In this document: positions 18,621 through 32,045 of the stretch, piece after piece
Numbering within the stretch: the stretch's first letter is position 1
Layout: each line of letters begins with the position of its first letter
IMG/VR virus record: IMGVR_UViG_3300021356_000088
Coordinates: 1 to 32,310 of that record
Source of the DNA: a virus
DNA length: 32,310 bases
Direction: 5' to 3' (one strand)
Made by a program: the position numbers and the translations under genes
The notes under the pieces: model-generated
Told to the model about the DNA's origin: nothing
Databases searched by the model: none
The model's input: the letters and a program-made list of their open reading frames with translations, nothing else

Positions 18621-18764
18621 ATGGAAATTTCATTTGGCTTATTACAAGGGTTTGTTTTCGGCATCAACTACTATGATTTTGAAGCAGAAGACAACATTGA
18701 GTGCGTTGTGCAGGTATTCATTGGCATTGTAGCTGTTGAATTTATGTGGTATGAATCTCCTTGA
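18621..18764 (+). CDS. Small hydrophobic protein (47 aa)
   Basis: A 47-codon ORF fills the space before the sigma-like gene and overlaps it by 14 nt. The product MEISFGLLQGFVFGINYYDF... has a second hydrophobic stretch (CVVQVFIGIVAVEFMW), possibly one membrane helix. A TATTTTCG sequence 13 nt before the ATG loosely resembles a -7 box. Function unknown; support is from spacing. Confidence 0.5.
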   Translation: MEISFGLLQGFVFGINYYDFEAEDNIECVVQVFIGIVAVEFMWYESP

Positions 18765-19278
18765 GATTGCATACACAACTGAAAGGCACAGCGATTGGAT
18801 AGTGATGGCTCAAAATTTGGGCGCAGGACATTACGCGGAGGATATTGTGCAGGAAATGTACATCAAGCTGAGTGAGATTAAGAATCCTGAGAGGCTGATA
18901 GATAAAAATAATCCAAATCAGTTGGTAGGTTTTTACGTTTATACTATTATCAGGAGTTTAATAGTTGACTTACAGCGAGTTCAGAAGCGTACTAAGATTA
19001 TCAGTATTGAACATATCAAAGAATTAGAAGCGTCAGAGGTTGACTTTGAGTTTGAAGCAGAGTATGCCAAGAAGCTGGAGGTGATTGAGCAGTCCAAAGC
19101 GGATATGGGGTGGTATGATTTGAAGCTATTTGAACTATATCACAACGAAGGCTTAAGCATACGAAAGCTATCTAAAGAAACGCGCATAAGCGCATCATCA
19201 ATATTTAATACATTGACAAATGCCAAGAGCAAAATCAACGAAGCCTACAACGAGGCGAAGAAAGAAAGCACCAAGTAA
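18751..19278 (+). CDS. Sigma-70/ECF-like transcription factor (175 aa)
   Basis: Looks like a small sigma factor with region 2 (about 20-75: GHYAEDIVQEMYIKLSEI, FYVYTIIRSLIVDLQRVQKR) and a C-terminal helix-turn-helix of region 4 type (about 130-165: YHNEGLSIRKLSKETRISAS). The ATG at 18751 is preferred over a TTG at 18736. It would bind core RNA polymerase and direct it to phage promoters; the repeated CGTTTATW elements before late genes are obvious candidates. It overlaps both neighbours. The family call is from motif pattern; a non-sigma DNA-binding protein is possible. Confidence 0.68.
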   Translation: MNLLEIAYTTERHSDWIVMAQNLGAGHYAEDIVQEMYIKLSEIKNPERLIDKNNPNQLVGFYVYTIIRSLIVDLQRVQKRTKIISIEHIKELEASEVDFEFEAEYAKKLEVIEQSKADMGWYDLKLFELYHNEGLSIRKLSKETRISASSIFNTLTNAKSKINEAYNEAKKESTK

Positions 19279-19654
19279 AGGTTTAGGCGATACCATAGAG
19301 AAGGTAACAGAAGCCACAGGAATAAAGAAGGCGGTCAAATGGTTGGCTGGTGAAGATTGTGGATGCGATGCTCGCAAGGAGAAGTTGAACAAGTTATTTC
19401 CATACGATCGGCACAAGCCAAAGAAATGTATGTCGGAGGCGCAGTATAACCAATGGACAAAGGTCAAGGACATCACGAAGCAAGACAAGCATAGATACCT
19501 TACAGAAGTCTATCCTGTGATTGCACAGATACACGCGATTGTTTTCGACCATAGATACCACGAGCCTTGCACCTGCACACCAAGACAATGGGAGCAATGG
19601 CGTAAAGATTTAGACCAAGTTTATTCAACATACCAAGAAGATGCAAAAAGTTAA
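19220..19654 (+). CDS. Cys-rich basic protein (144 aa)
   Basis: Starts 59 nt inside the sigma-like gene. A basic N-terminus (KSTKPTTRRRKKAPSKG) is followed by GLGDTIEKVTEATGIKKAVKWL, then GEDCGCDARKEKLNKLFPY, KKCMSEAQY and CTCTPRQWEQW. The paired CGC and CTC clusters suggest zinc binding. I recognise the GEDCGCDxRKEKLNKLFPY block from Bacteroidetes phage genomes but no function is known. It precedes the ParB-type gene by a 14-nt overlap and may belong to the same unit. Confidence 0.65.
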   Translation: MPRAKSTKPTTRRRKKAPSKGLGDTIEKVTEATGIKKAVKWLAGEDCGCDARKEKLNKLFPYDRHKPKKCMSEAQYNQWTKVKDITKQDKHRYLTEVYPVIAQIHAIVFDHRYHEPCTCTPRQWEQWRKDLDQVYSTYQEDAKS

Positions 19655-20213
19655 GATAACAGAAGTAAAGACCAATCCTAACAATCCGCGATTGATTAAG
19701 GATGACAAGTTCAAGAAGCTGGTCAAGTCAATAAAAGAGTTTCCTCAGATGCTAGAGTTGAGACCCATCGTAGTAAACGATGATATGATAGTGTTAGGTG
19801 GTAATATGCGTTTAAAGGCTTGCAAGGAAGCAGGATTAAAAGAAGTGCCTATCATTAAAGCAAGCGATTTGACTGAAGAGCAGCAGAAGGAGTTTATAGT
19901 TAAGGATAATGTAGGATTTGGTGAATGGGATTGGGATATATTAGCAAACGAATGGGATAATGCACAGCTTGGAGAATGGGGTTTGGATGTTTGGCAGCCT
20001 GAGGAAGAGGTGGACTATTCCATCCTTGATGATGAAGATGTTGAGAATCAGCTTCAAGATATGGCTGATGGGGTTAAGAAGGCTATTCAGATTGAATTTG
20101 AGCCTGACCACTATGAAGAGGCTTACGATCTTGTAAAGTTTTGGCGTGACCAAGATGCTTATATTGGCAAGATGATATTAGACTTCTTGAAATCTGAAAA
20201 GAACAAGCTATGA
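19641..20213 (+). CDS. ParB-like nuclease-domain protein (190 aa)
   Basis: Residues about 1-95 match the ParB/Srx N-terminal domain: NPNNPR (about 12-17), ELRPIVVNDDMIVLGGNMRLKA with the GGNxR motif, and EVPIIKASDLTEEQQKEFI. The rest (DNVGFGEWDWDILANEWD, then an acidic stretch) is as seen in phage ParB-type proteins. These are linked to DNA binding, nicking or modification, and ParB-domain proteins recur in phage gene sets with TET/JBP dioxygenases and glycosyltransferases. Here it overlaps the glycosyltransferase gene by 4 nt. Its exact activity is not determined. Confidence 0.8.
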   Translation: MQKVKITEVKTNPNNPRLIKDDKFKKLVKSIKEFPQMLELRPIVVNDDMIVLGGNMRLKACKEAGLKEVPIIKASDLTEEQQKEFIVKDNVGFGEWDWDILANEWDNAQLGEWGLDVWQPEEEVDYSILDDEDVENQLQDMADGVKKAIQIEFEPDHYEEAYDLVKFWRDQDAYIGKMILDFLKSEKNKL

Positions 20214-20923
20214 AATGCCTTGTTTGCATACCAAGTAAGGCAAGACCAAACAACATAAAGAAGTATGTTGAGCCGTTTATGCAAAGGCTGGAACTTGATT
20301 ACAAGATATTTGTTGAGCCGCAAGACGCTGAACAATATAAGTTTGATAACGTAGTGATTCTTGACGCAAACGACAAAGGGTTAGGGTACGCTACTGCATT
20401 TGCCAAGAAATACGCAGAAGAAAAAGGATACGACCTTTACTTCCGTATAGATGATGATGTGAAGGGTATTGGCGAAATTGAAAAAGATATTGACAGAATC
20501 ATAAAGGCTTTTGAGATAAAGAAGGTTGGAGCGGTTGTGTTTCCTTATTCATTTGAATGGTATGCTAAAACAGATAAGCTATTCACAAGGGTAAATAAAC
20601 GAACGCAAACTTGCTACATAATACGCACGAACTTGTTTAGACCAAATAACAACGTAAGCACATTTGATGATTTTTATCAATACCTTTTGCTGCGCAACGA
20701 CAATTACGACACATTGTATTGTTCAAAGCATTTAATTGACTGCGCACCAGTAGGCGGGGGCACGGGCGGCTTGCAAGTTTTTGATCGTTCAGAAATGGCT
20801 TTAAATGAGATTAACATATTCAAAAGCATTGACCCGACAATTAAGGTAATAACTAAGCCTGACAAGCCTTGGAAATACGAGCCTAAGTTTACGGATAAGA
20901 AATACAGAAGTAAAAAGATATGA
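20210..20923 (+). CDS. TAGT/GREB-type DNA-modification glycosyltransferase (237 aa)
   Basis: GT-A-like nucleotide-sugar glycosyltransferase of the TET/JBP-associated (TAGT, GREB1-related) group. Visible are CIPSKARPNNIKKYVEPF (6-23), VEPQDAEQY (35-43), NDKGLGYATAFAKKYAEEKG (54-73), the acidic metal site RIDDDVKGI (D81-D83) and PVGGGTGGLQVFDRSEM. The family adds a sugar to oxidised bases in DNA; the trypanosome base-J glucosyltransferase is related. It is coupled by ATGA to the ParB-type gene before it and to the dioxygenase after it, so it most likely acts on the dioxygenase product. Donor sugar unknown. Confidence 0.75.
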   Translation: MKCLVCIPSKARPNNIKKYVEPFMQRLELDYKIFVEPQDAEQYKFDNVVILDANDKGLGYATAFAKKYAEEKGYDLYFRIDDDVKGIGEIEKDIDRIIKAFEIKKVGAVVFPYSFEWYAKTDKLFTRVNKRTQTCYIIRTNLFRPNNNVSTFDDFYQYLLLRNDNYDTLYCSKHLIDCAPVGGGTGGLQVFDRSEMALNEINIFKSIDPTIKVITKPDKPWKYEPKFTDKKYRSKKI

Positions 20924-21726
20924 AACGCATAGACCTAAATCAGATAGAACACGTTGTAAAGATTGGTGACCAATGCCCAGCGTTTGAGCCTAACGTAACA
21001 GAGGACTGCATATTCTATGCTGATGATGAGCCGATTGGTTTCTTTATGCGACAAATGCCCGACAAAATGTGCAAGTTGGCAGACCTTGCGGATAAGGAAT
21101 TGAGGAGCAAGAATGTTCCAAAGTCAATGATGAATAGAGCCTCAGCAATAAAGGCTTTTTATCAAGGAGGCATAGAAGCTATGAAAAATGACGTTCAACA
21201 ATTCTCAACAATTTTAGGAAGCACACCGCCAAAGCCACACTTGAAAAGACCTTACGCATCAAGAAGCAGCGTTCACCAAGTCAAGTCAGCGCAAACCTTC
21301 ATAAAGGCAATGTTGTTGTTAGTAAAGAAAAGCGAGCAACTAATAGCTGATATATTACCCAAGCAATACCAAAGGCAAAAAGAATTATTTAGTAAAGTCG
21401 GTAATGAATGGAAGTTTGGCAACCTGTTTACATCTTCGATTAGCAATTACAATATAAGCGCACCATTCCACAGGGATACAGGCAATATCGTTGGCGCAGT
21501 AAATGTGATTATCACTAAGCGCAAGAACAGCAAAGGAGGAAACCTAAATATACCTGATTACGGTGCAACGATTGACCAATGCGATAATTCTATTTTGGTT
21601 TACCCAGCTTGGAGAAACGTACACGGAGTAACACCGATTGAACCAACGTATGAAGGCGGCTATCGTAATTCCTTAGTTTTTTACCCATTAAAAGCATTTT
21701 TGAATGAACAAAACAGAACAACATAA
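20920..21726 (+). CDS. JBP/TET-like 2-oxoglutarate-Fe(II) dioxygenase (268 aa)
   Basis: The C-terminal half has the double-stranded beta-helix signature: APFHRDTGN (H184, D186), GGNLNIPDYG (207-215), WRNVHGVTPI (H235) and YRNSLVFYPL (R249). H184/D186/H235 are the iron ligands and R249 the 2-oxoglutarate anchor; the spacing is close to that of JBP1. Upstream is STILGSTPPKPHLKRPYASRSS-like text (96-117), typical of phage members. It would hydroxylate the 5-methyl group of thymine or 5-methylcytosine in DNA, giving the substrate for the adjacent glycosyltransferase. It is coupled to that gene by ATGA and overlaps the small terminase by 23 nt. Base specificity cannot be read from sequence. Confidence 0.78.
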   Translation: MKRIDLNQIEHVVKIGDQCPAFEPNVTEDCIFYADDEPIGFFMRQMPDKMCKLADLADKELRSKNVPKSMMNRASAIKAFYQGGIEAMKNDVQQFSTILGSTPPKPHLKRPYASRSSVHQVKSAQTFIKAMLLLVKKSEQLIADILPKQYQRQKELFSKVGNEWKFGNLFTSSISNYNISAPFHRDTGNIVGAVNVIITKRKNSKGGNLNIPDYGATIDQCDNSILVYPAWRNVHGVTPIEPTYEGGYRNSLVFYPLKAFLNEQNRTT

Positions 21727-22057
21727 AAAGGCAGTCATAGAAGCCTTAGAATCTTCGCTTGGTGTTGTGACATCAGCTTGCAAAAAAGCTGGGGTAGGTC
21801 GCACTACATTTTATCAATGGCTTAAAGATGATGCGGACTTTGCGAAGCAGGTTGCAGATATTGAAAACGTAGCATTGGACTTTGCTGAATCACAGCTTCA
21901 TAAGCAGATACAAGATGGCTCGGCTGCTGCTACAATATTCTATCTCAAAACCAAAGGCAAGAAGCGAGGATACATTGAACGTCAGGAGATAGCACACGAA
22001 GGTGTGCAGACCTTCCAAATCATTGAGGATGGCGAATGGGAAGATTCGGGTAAATAA
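21704..22057 (+). CDS. terS: Terminase small subunit (117 aa)
   Basis: An N-terminal helix-turn-helix (about 15-45: SACKKAGVGRTTFYQWLK) is followed by ALDFAESQLHKQIQDGSAAA and IFYLKTKGKKRGYIER, a pattern typical of phBC6A51-type small terminases. It recognises phage DNA and starts packaging. It overlaps the dioxygenase by 23 nt and the large subunit by 29 nt. Packaging therefore sits directly behind the DNA modification genes. Confidence 0.82.
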   Translation: MNKTEQHKKAVIEALESSLGVVTSACKKAGVGRTTFYQWLKDDADFAKQVADIENVALDFAESQLHKQIQDGSAAATIFYLKTKGKKRGYIERQEIAHEGVQTFQIIEDGEWEDSGK

Positions 22058-23189
22058 AGTCTTTACACATCTCAAGAAGTCAGACCAAAAGATAATCGTT
22101 GAGCAGGGCGGTACGAGATCAGGTAAGACGTACAACATTCTGCTATGGATAATATTCGACTACTGCTATCGTAATAAGGGCAAGACCATAACGATTGCTC
22201 GTAAGACATTCCCAGCAGTTCGCTCATCTGTAATGCGTGACTTCTTTGACATTCTCCGTAAGCATAATTTATACAACGAGCAATACCACAACAAATCCAA
22301 CAGCGAATACCATCTGAATGGAAACCTGATTGAGTTCATCAGCTTAGACCAACCACAAAAGATACGAGGTCGCAAGCGTGATTTAGCCTTTCTAAACGAA
22401 GCAAATGAATTGTATTGGGAAGATTGGCAGCAGATACTATTCAGAACCACAGGTCGCATCATAATCGACTACAATCCATCTGACAGCTTCCATTGGATTT
22501 ATGACAAGGTAGTGCCACGAGAGGACTGCTCTTTTATGCAAACCACATACAAGGATAATCCATACCTTGAGGAAAGCATCATTCACGAAATCGAAAGGCT
22601 GAAAGAAACAGATGAGGACTATTGGAGGATCTATGGACTTGGTGAGCGTGGAATGTCAAGAGCAACAATATTTCAGTTTGGCATTGTGCAAGAGGTATCA
22701 GGTCAGCTACTATCCACAGGAATGGACTTTGGGTTTACTAATGATCCGACAGCATTGGTCAAGGTTTATAAGAAAGGTAACCAGCTTATCCTTGATGAAC
22801 TGCTCTACCATACCAACTTAACCAACCAAGACATAGCACACAAGTTTGAGGAGTTAGGATTGAACAGGCTTGATGTTATCTACGCGGACTCGGCTGAGCC
22901 AAAGTCAATAGAGGAACTGCATAGGCTAAGATGGAATGTAAAACCAACAGCCAAAGGTGCGGATTCAATAATGGCTGGCATTGATATGTTGAAGCGTTAT
23001 GAGTTGAAGGTGACAGCGAATAGTTTGAACCTAATCAAAGAACTGCAAAACTACAAATGGACAGAGGACAAGAATGGCAACCTACTCAACAAACCTGTGA
23101 ATAATTTCAATCACGCTATTGATGCGGTCAGGTATGCGGTTTGGAATCGTTTGGCAAACCCGAACTACGGAAGTTATAGTATTCGCTAA
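22029..23189 (+). CDS. terL: Terminase large subunit (386 aa)
   Basis: ATP-driven packaging motor and nuclease. Walker A EQGGTRSGKT (about 26-35), Walker B DLAFLNEANEL (about 119-129), then RNase H-like nuclease blocks GMDFGFTNDPTAL (about 235-247), VIYADSAEPKSIEEL and a C-terminal NHAIDAVRYAV. The ATG at 22029 (MANGKIRVNK) is chosen over an upstream GTG at 22002 because it gives the usual short lead into the ATPase. It is followed by a hairpin over the stop codon region and a small gene. Confidence 0.9.
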   Translation: MANGKIRVNKVFTHLKKSDQKIIVEQGGTRSGKTYNILLWIIFDYCYRNKGKTITIARKTFPAVRSSVMRDFFDILRKHNLYNEQYHNKSNSEYHLNGNLIEFISLDQPQKIRGRKRDLAFLNEANELYWEDWQQILFRTTGRIIIDYNPSDSFHWIYDKVVPREDCSFMQTTYKDNPYLEESIIHEIERLKETDEDYWRIYGLGERGMSRATIFQFGIVQEVSGQLLSTGMDFGFTNDPTALVKVYKKGNQLILDELLYHTNLTNQDIAHKFEELGLNRLDVIYADSAEPKSIEELHRLRWNVKPTAKGADSIMAGIDMLKRYELKVTANSLNLIKELQNYKWTEDKNGNLLNKPVNNFNHAIDAVRYAVWNRLANPNYGSYSIR

Positions 23190-29879: not shown

Positions 29880-30019
29880 TTAAGGATATTATAGAACTAC
29901 TGAAGAGCGATGATTGGCACGATGGCGGTCAACTGACACAGATGGCAAAAGGCAAGTACAAAGTACCTGAGAACCTAGCCGAATTTAAGAACTACTTTAA
30001 ACTACAAAGTAATGGCTGA
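29876..30019 (+). CDS. Small protein upstream of tape measure (47 aa, second copy)
   Basis: Same 47-codon ORF as at 59-202, in the same ATGA overlap with the 852-aa tail gene and the same 8-nt overlap with the tape measure gene. The one clear base difference (CTGACA for CTAACA) is silent, which supports purifying selection on the frame. No membrane segment or motif is present. Function unknown. Confidence 0.65.
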   Translation: MIKDIIELLKSDDWHDGGQLTQMAKGKYKVPENLAEFKNYFKLQSNG

Positions 30020-32045
30020 AAAAATAAAAAAAGTAGTTGAGATTGAGATTGATGTTAATAGTTCTGAGGTTACTCAATTAAACAAAGAAATAAAAGCAAC
30101 TAACAGCAACTTAAATCAAACCAATACAGCTAATGCTGGACTGTCAAGCCAGCTTAATAAAACGACAGGCATTGCTATCTCAGGATTTAAGAAATTTATC
30201 CAACTTATTAAATCAGCAGCAAAAAGTGTAGGGGGCGTTAGTAAGGAATTAGAAGAAACTGAAAAAGGCACAGAGGAAGTTGGTGGTGGATTTAACAAAG
30301 TCCGAACATTTGTTAAAGGCGTTGGTGAGGAATTAAAAGAAGTAAAAAAAGACACAAAGGATGTTAGTAAGGAAACAAAAAAATCTGAAAAAGGCACATC
30401 AGGACTTGCTGGTGGATTCAAGAAAGTCGGAACAGCTATTAAAGCAGCAGGCATTGGATTACTGATTGCCGCTTTAGGAACTTTAGTTGAGGTATTTAAA
30501 AACAATCAAGGGGCACTAGACGCTTTTGAAACAGGTCTGACAGCTTTAAAAATAGCCTTTAATGATTTGTTTAAATTCTTCGAAAGCAATGTCGGTACTG
30601 TTGTAGATTATTTTAATGAATTATTTGAAGATCCACAAAAGAAAATTGCAGAACTAGGAGCATCAATAGGTGAAGGGCTGACCAAGCGTTTTGAGCAGTT
30701 AATGGAGACATTGGGATTAGCAGGCAAAGCATTGTTTCAATTCTTCTCAGGAGACTTTGCAAAGGCGTGGGAAACAGCCAAAGAAGCTGCGGTTCAGAGC
30801 GTAGATATAATTACAGGTGAGGATGGTGGTTTAGAAAAGATTGTCAATACAGCTAAAAACGTAGTAGGCGCAATAAGTGACTATACATCGGAAACATTAA
30901 AAAGCGCGAAGGCTACTGTTGAACTTGGTAAAGCAGCAGAAATTGCAGCTATTCAGCAACAAGGCTTAATAGAAGAGTTTGATAGGGCGGCTGAACTTCA
31001 AAGACAGATTCGAGATGACGAGACAAAATCATTTGAAGAGCGCATCGCAGCGAATGAGAAGCTGGGTGAAATATTGCAAGACCAAATTGACGCAGAAACA
31101 GCCTTAATTGACATTCAACAAAGAGCAGTACAAGATAGATTAGCCAAAGGTTTAATACCTGAGTTTGAAGCTAAAAAGCAACTGTTAGAATTAGATAATG
31201 AAAGGGCAGCTATATTAGCAAAGGTCACAGGTTTTGAGTCTGAACAGCTAATAAATAGAAACAGTTTGCTGCGCGAGCAAAGAGACTTACAGGATCAGAT
31301 TAATCAACAAGCCATAGAGAGGCAAAAACAATTAGATGACATCAGCCTTCAGATAATGGAAGATGGCATTGATAAAGAGTTGATGATGTCTGCTCAAAAA
31401 TATGATGCTCTATACGCACAGGCAGAAGGCAACGCTGAACTACAAAAGCAAATCACAGAGGCGCAAGAAAGAGAAGCAGGCGAGATTGTAAAAAAATATG
31501 CTGATGAAGAGGTAAAATTACAAAGACAAAAGCAGGAGGCAATTACTCAAATTGCTAGAGATGGTTTAAATGCAGCATTAGCAATTAGTGATGCACTAGC
31601 AGCAAATCAATTAATTTCAGCAAAACGAGCATTTCAAGTTCAGAAGGCTGTATCAATCGCTCAAACAGCAATAGACACAGCACAATCAGCACAATCTTCA
31701 TACAAGGCAATGTCAGGAATCCCTGTGGTTGGACCTGTGCTTGGAGGTATTGCGGCAGCAGCAGCAGTTGCAATGGGGGTTGCTCAAATTGCCACAATAG
31801 CATCACAAAAGTTTGAGCCTAAAGGCGGTGGCGGTGGTTCTAAGCCATCAGTAAGTCAGCCATCAATGCCATCATCAGGTGGTGGCGCACCACAATTTAA
31901 CACAGTCGGAACAAGCGGATTTAATCAAGTGGCTGGCAGTATTGCAGAACAGAATCAAGAACCTGTCAAAGCCTATGTTGTATCGACAGATGTAACGAGT
32001 CAGCAGAGCCTTGACAGAAACAGCCGAGACAAGTCATCATTTTGA
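30012..32045 (+). CDS. Tail tape measure protein, allele B (677 aa)
   Basis: Same organisation as allele A at 195: N-terminal coiled coil, 14-residue repeats (75-130), hydrophobic helix GTAIKAAGIGLLIAALGTLV (about 140-159), a nearly identical coiled core (about 290-490), a second hydrophobic region (about 570-620), a shorter glycine run (KGGGGGSK) and the same SQQSLDRNSRDKSSF end. Diverged blocks lie at about 200-290 and 490-625, and it is 15 residues shorter. The mosaic of identical and diverged blocks points to recombination between strains. Role as for allele A: tail length ruler. It is followed by a partial protease copy at 32080. Confidence 0.88.
   Translation: MAEKIKKVVEIEIDVNSSEVTQLNKEIKATNSNLNQTNTANAGLSSQLNKTTGIAISGFKKFIQLIKSAAKSVGGVSKELEETEKGTEEVGGGFNKVRTFVKGVGEELKEVKKDTKDVSKETKKSEKGTSGLAGGFKKVGTAIKAAGIGLLIAALGTLVEVFKNNQGALDAFETGLTALKIAFNDLFKFFESNVGTVVDYFNELFEDPQKKIAELGASIGEGLTKRFEQLMETLGLAGKALFQFFSGDFAKAWETAKEAAVQSVDIITGEDGGLEKIVNTAKNVVGAISDYTSETLKSAKATVELGKAAEIAAIQQQGLIEEFDRAAELQRQIRDDETKSFEERIAANEKLGEILQDQIDAETALIDIQQRAVQDRLAKGLIPEFEAKKQLLELDNERAAILAKVTGFESEQLINRNSLLREQRDLQDQINQQAIERQKQLDDISLQIMEDGIDKELMMSAQKYDALYAQAEGNAELQKQITEAQEREAGEIVKKYADEEVKLQRQKQEAITQIARDGLNAALAISDALAANQLISAKRAFQVQKAVSIAQTAIDTAQSAQSSYKAMSGIPVVGPVLGGIAAAAAVAMGVAQIATIASQKFEPKGGGGGSKPSVSQPSMPSSGGGAPQFNTVGTSGFNQVAGSIAEQNQEPVKAYVVSTDVTSQQSLDRNSRDKSSF
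30234..30401 (+). repeat. Four diverged 42-bp repeats in tape measure allele B
   Basis: Residues 75-130 keep a 14-residue period (GVSKELEETEKGTE, EVGGGFNKVRTFVK, GVGEELKEVKKDTK, DVSKETKKSEKGTS) and end in the same GLAGGFKKVG as allele A, but units 2 and 3 have drifted strongly. Confidence 0.75.

Follow-up and report, generated by a model that had tools for sequence, protein, structure and literature searches.

A candidate phage DNA-hypermodification cassette with an exchangeable tailoring gene between ParB-like and TET/JBP genes

Three overlapping phage genes, which encode a ParB-like protein, a TAGT-type GT-A glycosyltransferase and a TET/JBP-type dioxygenase, very probably serve to oxidise a base in the phage DNA and to attach a sugar to it. 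To judge from related loci, the middle gene is an exchange slot between a constant ParB gene and a constant TET gene. A preliminary description of this DNA had proposed oxidation of a base methyl group followed by sugar addition; the protein families, the invariance of their motifs, the gene order and the folds support that course, while the chemistry itself is a prediction. It had noted neither the exchange of the middle gene nor the lack of an accompanying C5-methyltransferase, which moves the likely substrate towards thymine.

The reading that we favour, with somewhat better than even confidence, is a co-translated and post-replicative hypermodification cassette that turns thymine into a base-J-like product and whose tailoring step can be swapped. 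The ParB-like protein would bind the phage DNA and help to place the dioxygenase, which would hydroxylate the 5-methyl group of a DNA pyrimidine; with thymine, the most likely base, this would yield 5-hydroxymethyluracil. The TAGT enzyme would then move a sugar from a nucleotide-sugar to the hydroxyl thus formed, and the product would be a nucleotide like base J. The constant core would be ParB and TET, and the gene between them a replaceable tailoring step, which could give way to an FkbM-type methyltransferase (with a predicted methoxymethyl base), to a kinase plus an amino-acid:DNA transferase (with a predicted amino-acid-derived adduct) or to other transferases, or could be lost. The likely benefit would be a varied DNA decoration that counters host nucleases, among them any that attack a single kind of decoration; in this scheme we infer the substrate base, the sugar, the role of ParB and the benefit. 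If the scheme is right, phages would diversify their DNA chemistry by a one-gene swap around an unchanged oxidising core. This would account for the ability of base decoration to keep up with nucleases that are specific for a decoration, and the scheme predicts unreported DNA nucleosides (a base-J-like one in phage and a methoxymethyl pyrimidine).

The three genes and their products

The genes are found in the virus record IMGVR_UViG_3300021356_000088, and the window is the whole stretch analysed, 32,310 bases, a record without end repeats that may be incomplete. It carries replication, terminase, portal, prohead-protease-like, endolysin and tail genes. The ParB-like gene (19641..20213, plus strand, 190 aa), the transferase gene (20210..20923, plus strand, 237 aa) and the dioxygenase gene (20920..21726, plus strand, 268 aa) are consecutive and coupled by ATGA overlaps at 20210-20213 and 20920-20923. 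The preliminary description was exact on these coordinates and couplings; the position of a ParB-domain gene ahead of the other two and the three family assignments hold as well; all three products score above the Pfam gathering cut-offs. The dioxygenase ORF runs into the ORF of a probable small terminase subunit (21704..22057, plus strand; phrog_4044 1e-8, phrog_309 4.8e-8), which is followed by the large terminase subunit (22002..23189, plus strand; PF04466 2.9e-24, PF17288 2.9e-18), whose true start is probably the ATG at 22029. The terminase adjoins the cassette in the window, as had been claimed for this DNA, and likewise in many relatives and cultured phages; that the cassette acts just before packaging we infer from gene order only. 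In comparison with G001, which has the nearest cassette by DNA, third codon positions are about 3 to 5 times more divergent than first and second positions, and therefore the cassette genes are under purifying selection.

The ParB-like protein has a ParB_N domain (PF02195, 2.5e-8; 34.3 bits against a cut-off of 26.3) and matches solved ParB/Spo0J structures. Its two halves have no clear difference in conservation.

The transferase matches the Pfam TAGT family (PF20691, 2e-8; 34.9 bits against a cut-off of 27.5), whose name stands for TET-Associated Glycosyltransferase; the match, which was recovered again in the genome scan, covers only the N-terminal half of the protein (residues 5-88). The motifs first read from the sequence, CIPSKARPNN at residues 6-15 and RIDDDVKGI at residues 79-87, are present, and 36 slot transferases, with identities down to about 15%, all share R12, D82 and D83 of the DDD motif, D154 and K216. 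The structural model (pLDDT 92.4) has a GT-A fold and matches GT-A structures with Z 14-17, among them ppGalNAcT-2 (Z 17.1, rmsd 3.1 over 217 residues). A sequence search of solved structures gave no true relative and the structural comparison gave no close relative beyond the general GT-A fold, so no particular sugar is assigned. A tblastn search of the cultured phages with the transferase of the window gave no match. The arrangement in which the TAGT gene lies beside the TET gene, with the ATGA overlap, recurs in relatives.

The dioxygenase matches Tet_JBP (PF12851, 8.6e-12; 45.0 bits against a cut-off of 34.9) over profile positions 12-161 of 164, which is nearly the whole domain. The residues H184, D186, H235 and R249, proposed earlier as its HxD...H...R set, are there and are invariant in 58 aligned relatives. 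When a profile of the relatives was compared with PDB sequences, TET2 was the first match, although a weak one (E 0.036), with H235 and R249, the third iron ligand and the 2-oxoglutarate arginine, aligned. The model of the enzyme has a low pLDDT of 69, which falls below 50 in parts of the active-site region. In the fold comparison the 16 best rows are all TET2, NgTET1, CcTET or CMD1 (Z 9.5-11.4), and every other 2-oxoglutarate dioxygenase scores lower, the next row having 7.7; the best match, to TET2 (Z 11.4, rmsd 4.4 over 230 residues), carries modest weight at a pLDDT of only 69. As modelled, the enzyme is a dioxygenase with a TET-like double-stranded beta-helix fold. The preliminary description had staked its proposal on the presence of DNA-active family folds, and the models keep them, the transferase as a GT-A enzyme and the dioxygenase as nearest to the TET family.

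Exchange of the gene between ParB and TET

Relatives of the dioxygenase are encoded on at least 597 viral contig stretches; we read the 80 best of these, together with further loci reached through the transferase. This sample holds only the closest TETs, most records are fragments, and functions of the slot genes are taken from family membership. In nearly all loci read, ParB precedes TET and flanks the slot on its 5' side, often with a terminase downstream of TET, and the gene between ParB and TET varies. Among 81 non-duplicate loci, the slot holds a TAGT-type GT-A enzyme in 44 (in four divergent groups, some below the Pfam cut-off), an FkbM-type methyltransferase in 22 and, combined with an amino-acid:DNA transferase, in one more, a 301-aa protein in five, and P-loop kinase-like and ADDT-type genes in another five, some with a glutamine amidotransferase, an acetyltransferase or an FAD oxidoreductase; it is empty in four. 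Clustering of slot genes at 1e-5 merged the TAGT and FkbM proteins, and stricter cut-offs separate them.

The exchange takes place directly between sister phages and is not merely a difference between lineages. L016, which has a TAGT gene, and L034, which has an FkbM gene, are 94.8% identical in DNA up to the ParB stop and 87.5% identical over 4.1 kb from the TET start. The flanks of L004 (TAGT) and L006 (FkbM) are 96% and 91% identical, and those of L083 (TAGT) and L008, which has no slot gene, 93% and 92%, with similarity resuming about 80 bases inside TET; for L015 (kinase and ADDT-like) and L077 (FkbM), flanking DNA is 82-85% identical. In the sister phages, the breakpoints coincide with the ParB stop and the TET start or fall no more than about 80 bp from them. 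L042, a relative of the window, has 74% DNA identity in ParB and 69% from TET through terminase, but its TAGT belongs to a different group. The TET tree requires at least 32 changes of slot state, against a minimum of 8; the figure of 32 is soft, since many inner branches are weak. Misassembly is an unlikely cause of these differences, because many independent contigs have their breaks close to or exactly at gene ends, and the FkbM arrangement is found in a cultured phage. Repeated swapping of the finishing step would be the pattern expected from selection by decoration-specific nucleases.

ParB and TET remain together even when the slot is empty, and ParB adjoins or is near TET in cyanobacterial phages, those of Prochlorococcus among them, and in actinobacterial phages too. 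For these reasons ParB was assigned to TET rather than to the transferase, and it is probably a DNA-binding or targeting partner of the dioxygenase. Pairwise identities of ParB and TET correlate only weakly (Spearman 0.15, a value reached by 27 of 500 permutations), so the trio is not claimed to move always as a unit; those of TET and terminase do not correlate. The three genes of the window are 80% identical to those of G001 over 2,039 bases, the only other DNA match between the two is of 73 bases, and their large terminases are 29% identical.

The slot contents differ in the product that they suggest. An FkbM-type methyltransferase lies between ParB and TET in Prochlorococcus phage MED4-184 (L095:16431-17132) and in 23 viral loci, and where it is present the DNA is predicted to contain a methoxymethyl pyrimidine, which is not known to us from nature. 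In L018 (1712-4014), L039, L025 and L027 the slot is filled by genes for a kinase-like protein, an ADDT, a glutamine amidotransferase, an acetyltransferase or an FAD oxidoreductase, a set of the thymidine-hypermodification type that is paired with a TET. The 301-aa slot protein (L081:3099-4001 and four other loci), which has no Pfam or PHROG match, looks glycosyltransferase-like, by eye only. In Arthrobacter phage Lilmac1015 (L115:2808-6152), the ParB, TET, annotated glycosyltransferase and glucosaminyl deacetylase genes stand in a row, which suggests that an amino-sugar may be placed on DNA. We tentatively propose, with a little less than even weight, a phage thymine-to-base-J-like pathway with a constant core of ParB and a TET/JBP thymine hydroxylase, in which one-gene tailoring swaps would leave sister phages with pyrimidines that bear a sugar, an O-methyl group (methoxymethyl) or an amino-acid decoration, or that stay as bare hydroxymethyl bases.

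The oxidised base and the use of the decoration

TET enzymes act on a 5-methylpyrimidine, which is 5mC or thymine. Thymine, as in base J, is the substrate that we prefer for the cassette, at slightly better than even confidence, and 5mC is its chief rival; the preference rests on the search for C5-methyltransferases, on one substrate-contacting position, on the ADDT partners and on the few restriction-modification systems of Prochlorococcus. No C5-cytosine methyltransferase (PF00145) was found in the window by a Pfam search over the whole record, nor in G001 (32,231 bases, with 123-base terminal repeats, probably complete), nor in eight cultured TET phages (MED4-184, MED4-117, Tonitrus, Acadian, LittleMunchkin, Lilmac1015, Kozie and Cr30), and the family is absent from 19 of the 23 TET-carrying metagenomic records and present in the other four. 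In TET2 the cytosine is contacted by His1904 and Asn1387. All eleven phage-type TETs compared have Leu or Ile in place of His1904, and in 58 close relatives the Leu is invariant; at the position of Asn1387 the phage TETs compared keep Asn, with Asp in Cr30. The Leu would be compatible with thymine use and is not proof of it; the TET model is of low confidence around the active site. Several TET phages have beside TET an amino-acid:DNA transferase, which is a thymine-hypermodification family (PMC6449724). Many Prochlorococcus genomes are without restriction-modification systems (PMC8262939), and host 5mC is therefore unlikely for the Prochlorococcus members.

If the same cassette acted instead on 5mC, made by the host or by a missed phage C5-methyltransferase, the product would be glycosyl-5hmC at methylated sites only. 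This is possible, though we do not think it probable: characterised phage TETs are said to use 5mC, PF00145 does occur in the minority of TET records counted above and most of the solved TET-family enzymes to which the model is similar act on 5mC, whereas the C5-methyltransferase is missing from the window, the terminally redundant G001 and the cultured phages, the cytosine-contacting His is replaced, and the amino-acid:DNA transferase partners belong to thymine hypermodification.

A second alternative, which concerns the benefit and not the chemistry, is that the DNA is decorated mainly for regulation or packaging and not for nuclease evasion. The place of the cassette directly before the terminase, in the window as in many relatives and cultured phages, and the few restriction systems in Prochlorococcus hosts (PMC8262939) are in its favour, but rapid exchange of the tailoring gene fits an arms race and not a fixed packaging signal, and we regard it as unlikely. 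The papers listed in a literature search showed no restriction-resistance data for phage Cr30.

That the enzymes modify RNA or protein instead of DNA is very improbable, since the one hint of it, the name queuine tRNA-ribosyltransferase given to homologues in RefSeq and PHROGs, is countered by the Tet_JBP profile, catalytic residues and fold of the dioxygenase, which has no Pfam match to a tRNA-ribosyltransferase family, and by the ParB partner and amino-acid:DNA transferase neighbours, which point to DNA. The name itself, carried by PHROG phrog_6059 and by RefSeq entries among the homology matches of the dioxygenase, was ruled out on the same profile, residues and fold; it is apparently a propagated misannotation, and the present finding corrects it for TET/JBP phage proteins.

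Relation to known systems and neighbouring genes

The ParB-TAGT-TET set is an already known kind of phage DNA-modification set. Iyer, Aravind and colleagues are said to have predicted in 2013 the TET/JBP-TAGT-ParB sets of phages; the same three families form one operon here, but the middle gene is exchanged between sister phages for enzymes that are not glycosyltransferases. Characterised phage TETs reportedly act on 5mC made by partner methyltransferases (the work of Burke et al. in PNAS, 2021, which PMC12730594 cites). The cassette resembles such TET, C5-methyltransferase and glycosyltransferase clusters in the use of a phage TET followed by DNA glycosylation, which is predicted here, and differs from them in that the C5-methyltransferase was not found in the window or the eight cultured TET phages. 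The kinetoplastid base J pathway (JBP1/JBP2 and JGT) likewise combines a Tet_JBP dioxygenase with a separate DNA glucosyltransferase, and thymine is the substrate proposed here too. In contrast to that pathway, the present system is from a phage, has a ParB partner and a TAGT instead of JGT, its thymine use is a prediction, and the dioxygenase of the window, of only 268 aa, has no J-binding or SNF2 domain that could be seen.

Thymidine hypermodification in phages M6, ViI and W-14 uses a 5hmdU kinase and amino-acid or alkylamine transferases (PMC6449724), and the slots of relatives hold kinase-like and ADDT genes. In those phages 5hmdU enters DNA as a nucleotide, whereas the present cassette would have TET form it in replicated DNA. 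As of 2019, no phage had been reported to contain glucosylated 5hmdU (PMC6449724). Cryoconite phage pan-genomes, in the sections of the account consulted, have a methyltransferase and other genes that interchange near ParB and terminase, so that near-identical phages differ in genes at one place beside the packaging genes, as here; those sections describe no TET-linked tailoring slot (PMC7468147). As far as checked, what is new is the single-gene tailoring exchange between a constant ParB and TET, the FkbM alternative and the evidence that most such phages are without a C5-methyltransferase. Cultured phages that encode such a TET include Prochlorococcus phages P-HS2, MED4-184 and MED4-117, Rhodococcus phage Tonitrus, Mycobacterium phage Acadian, Gordonia phage LittleMunchkin and Caulobacter phage Cr30. 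TET relatives that are 49-69% identical (L109, L110, L111 and L112) are on contigs binned with beta-proteobacterial, Flavobacteriaceae and Oscillatoria MAGs, which are hints of hosts.

Upstream of the cassette, an ORF (19220..19654, plus strand; phrog_32048 2.5e-10) overlaps ParB and encodes a small Cys-containing protein. The protein, basic at its N-terminus and with a number of Cys and His residues, is kept at the same place in some relatives, with homologues upstream of ParB in 10 other loci, mostly 39-46% identical (30% in L073). We treat it as context, a neighbour rather than an established cassette member. Before it, at 18736-19278, lies the gene of a sigma-70-region-like protein, also found upstream in some relatives, which may drive late genes including the cassette. 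At opposite ends of the record, the genes at 195-2273 and 30012-32045 encode tape-measure or virion-structural-like proteins that are 69% identical over their full length, the result of a gene duplication.
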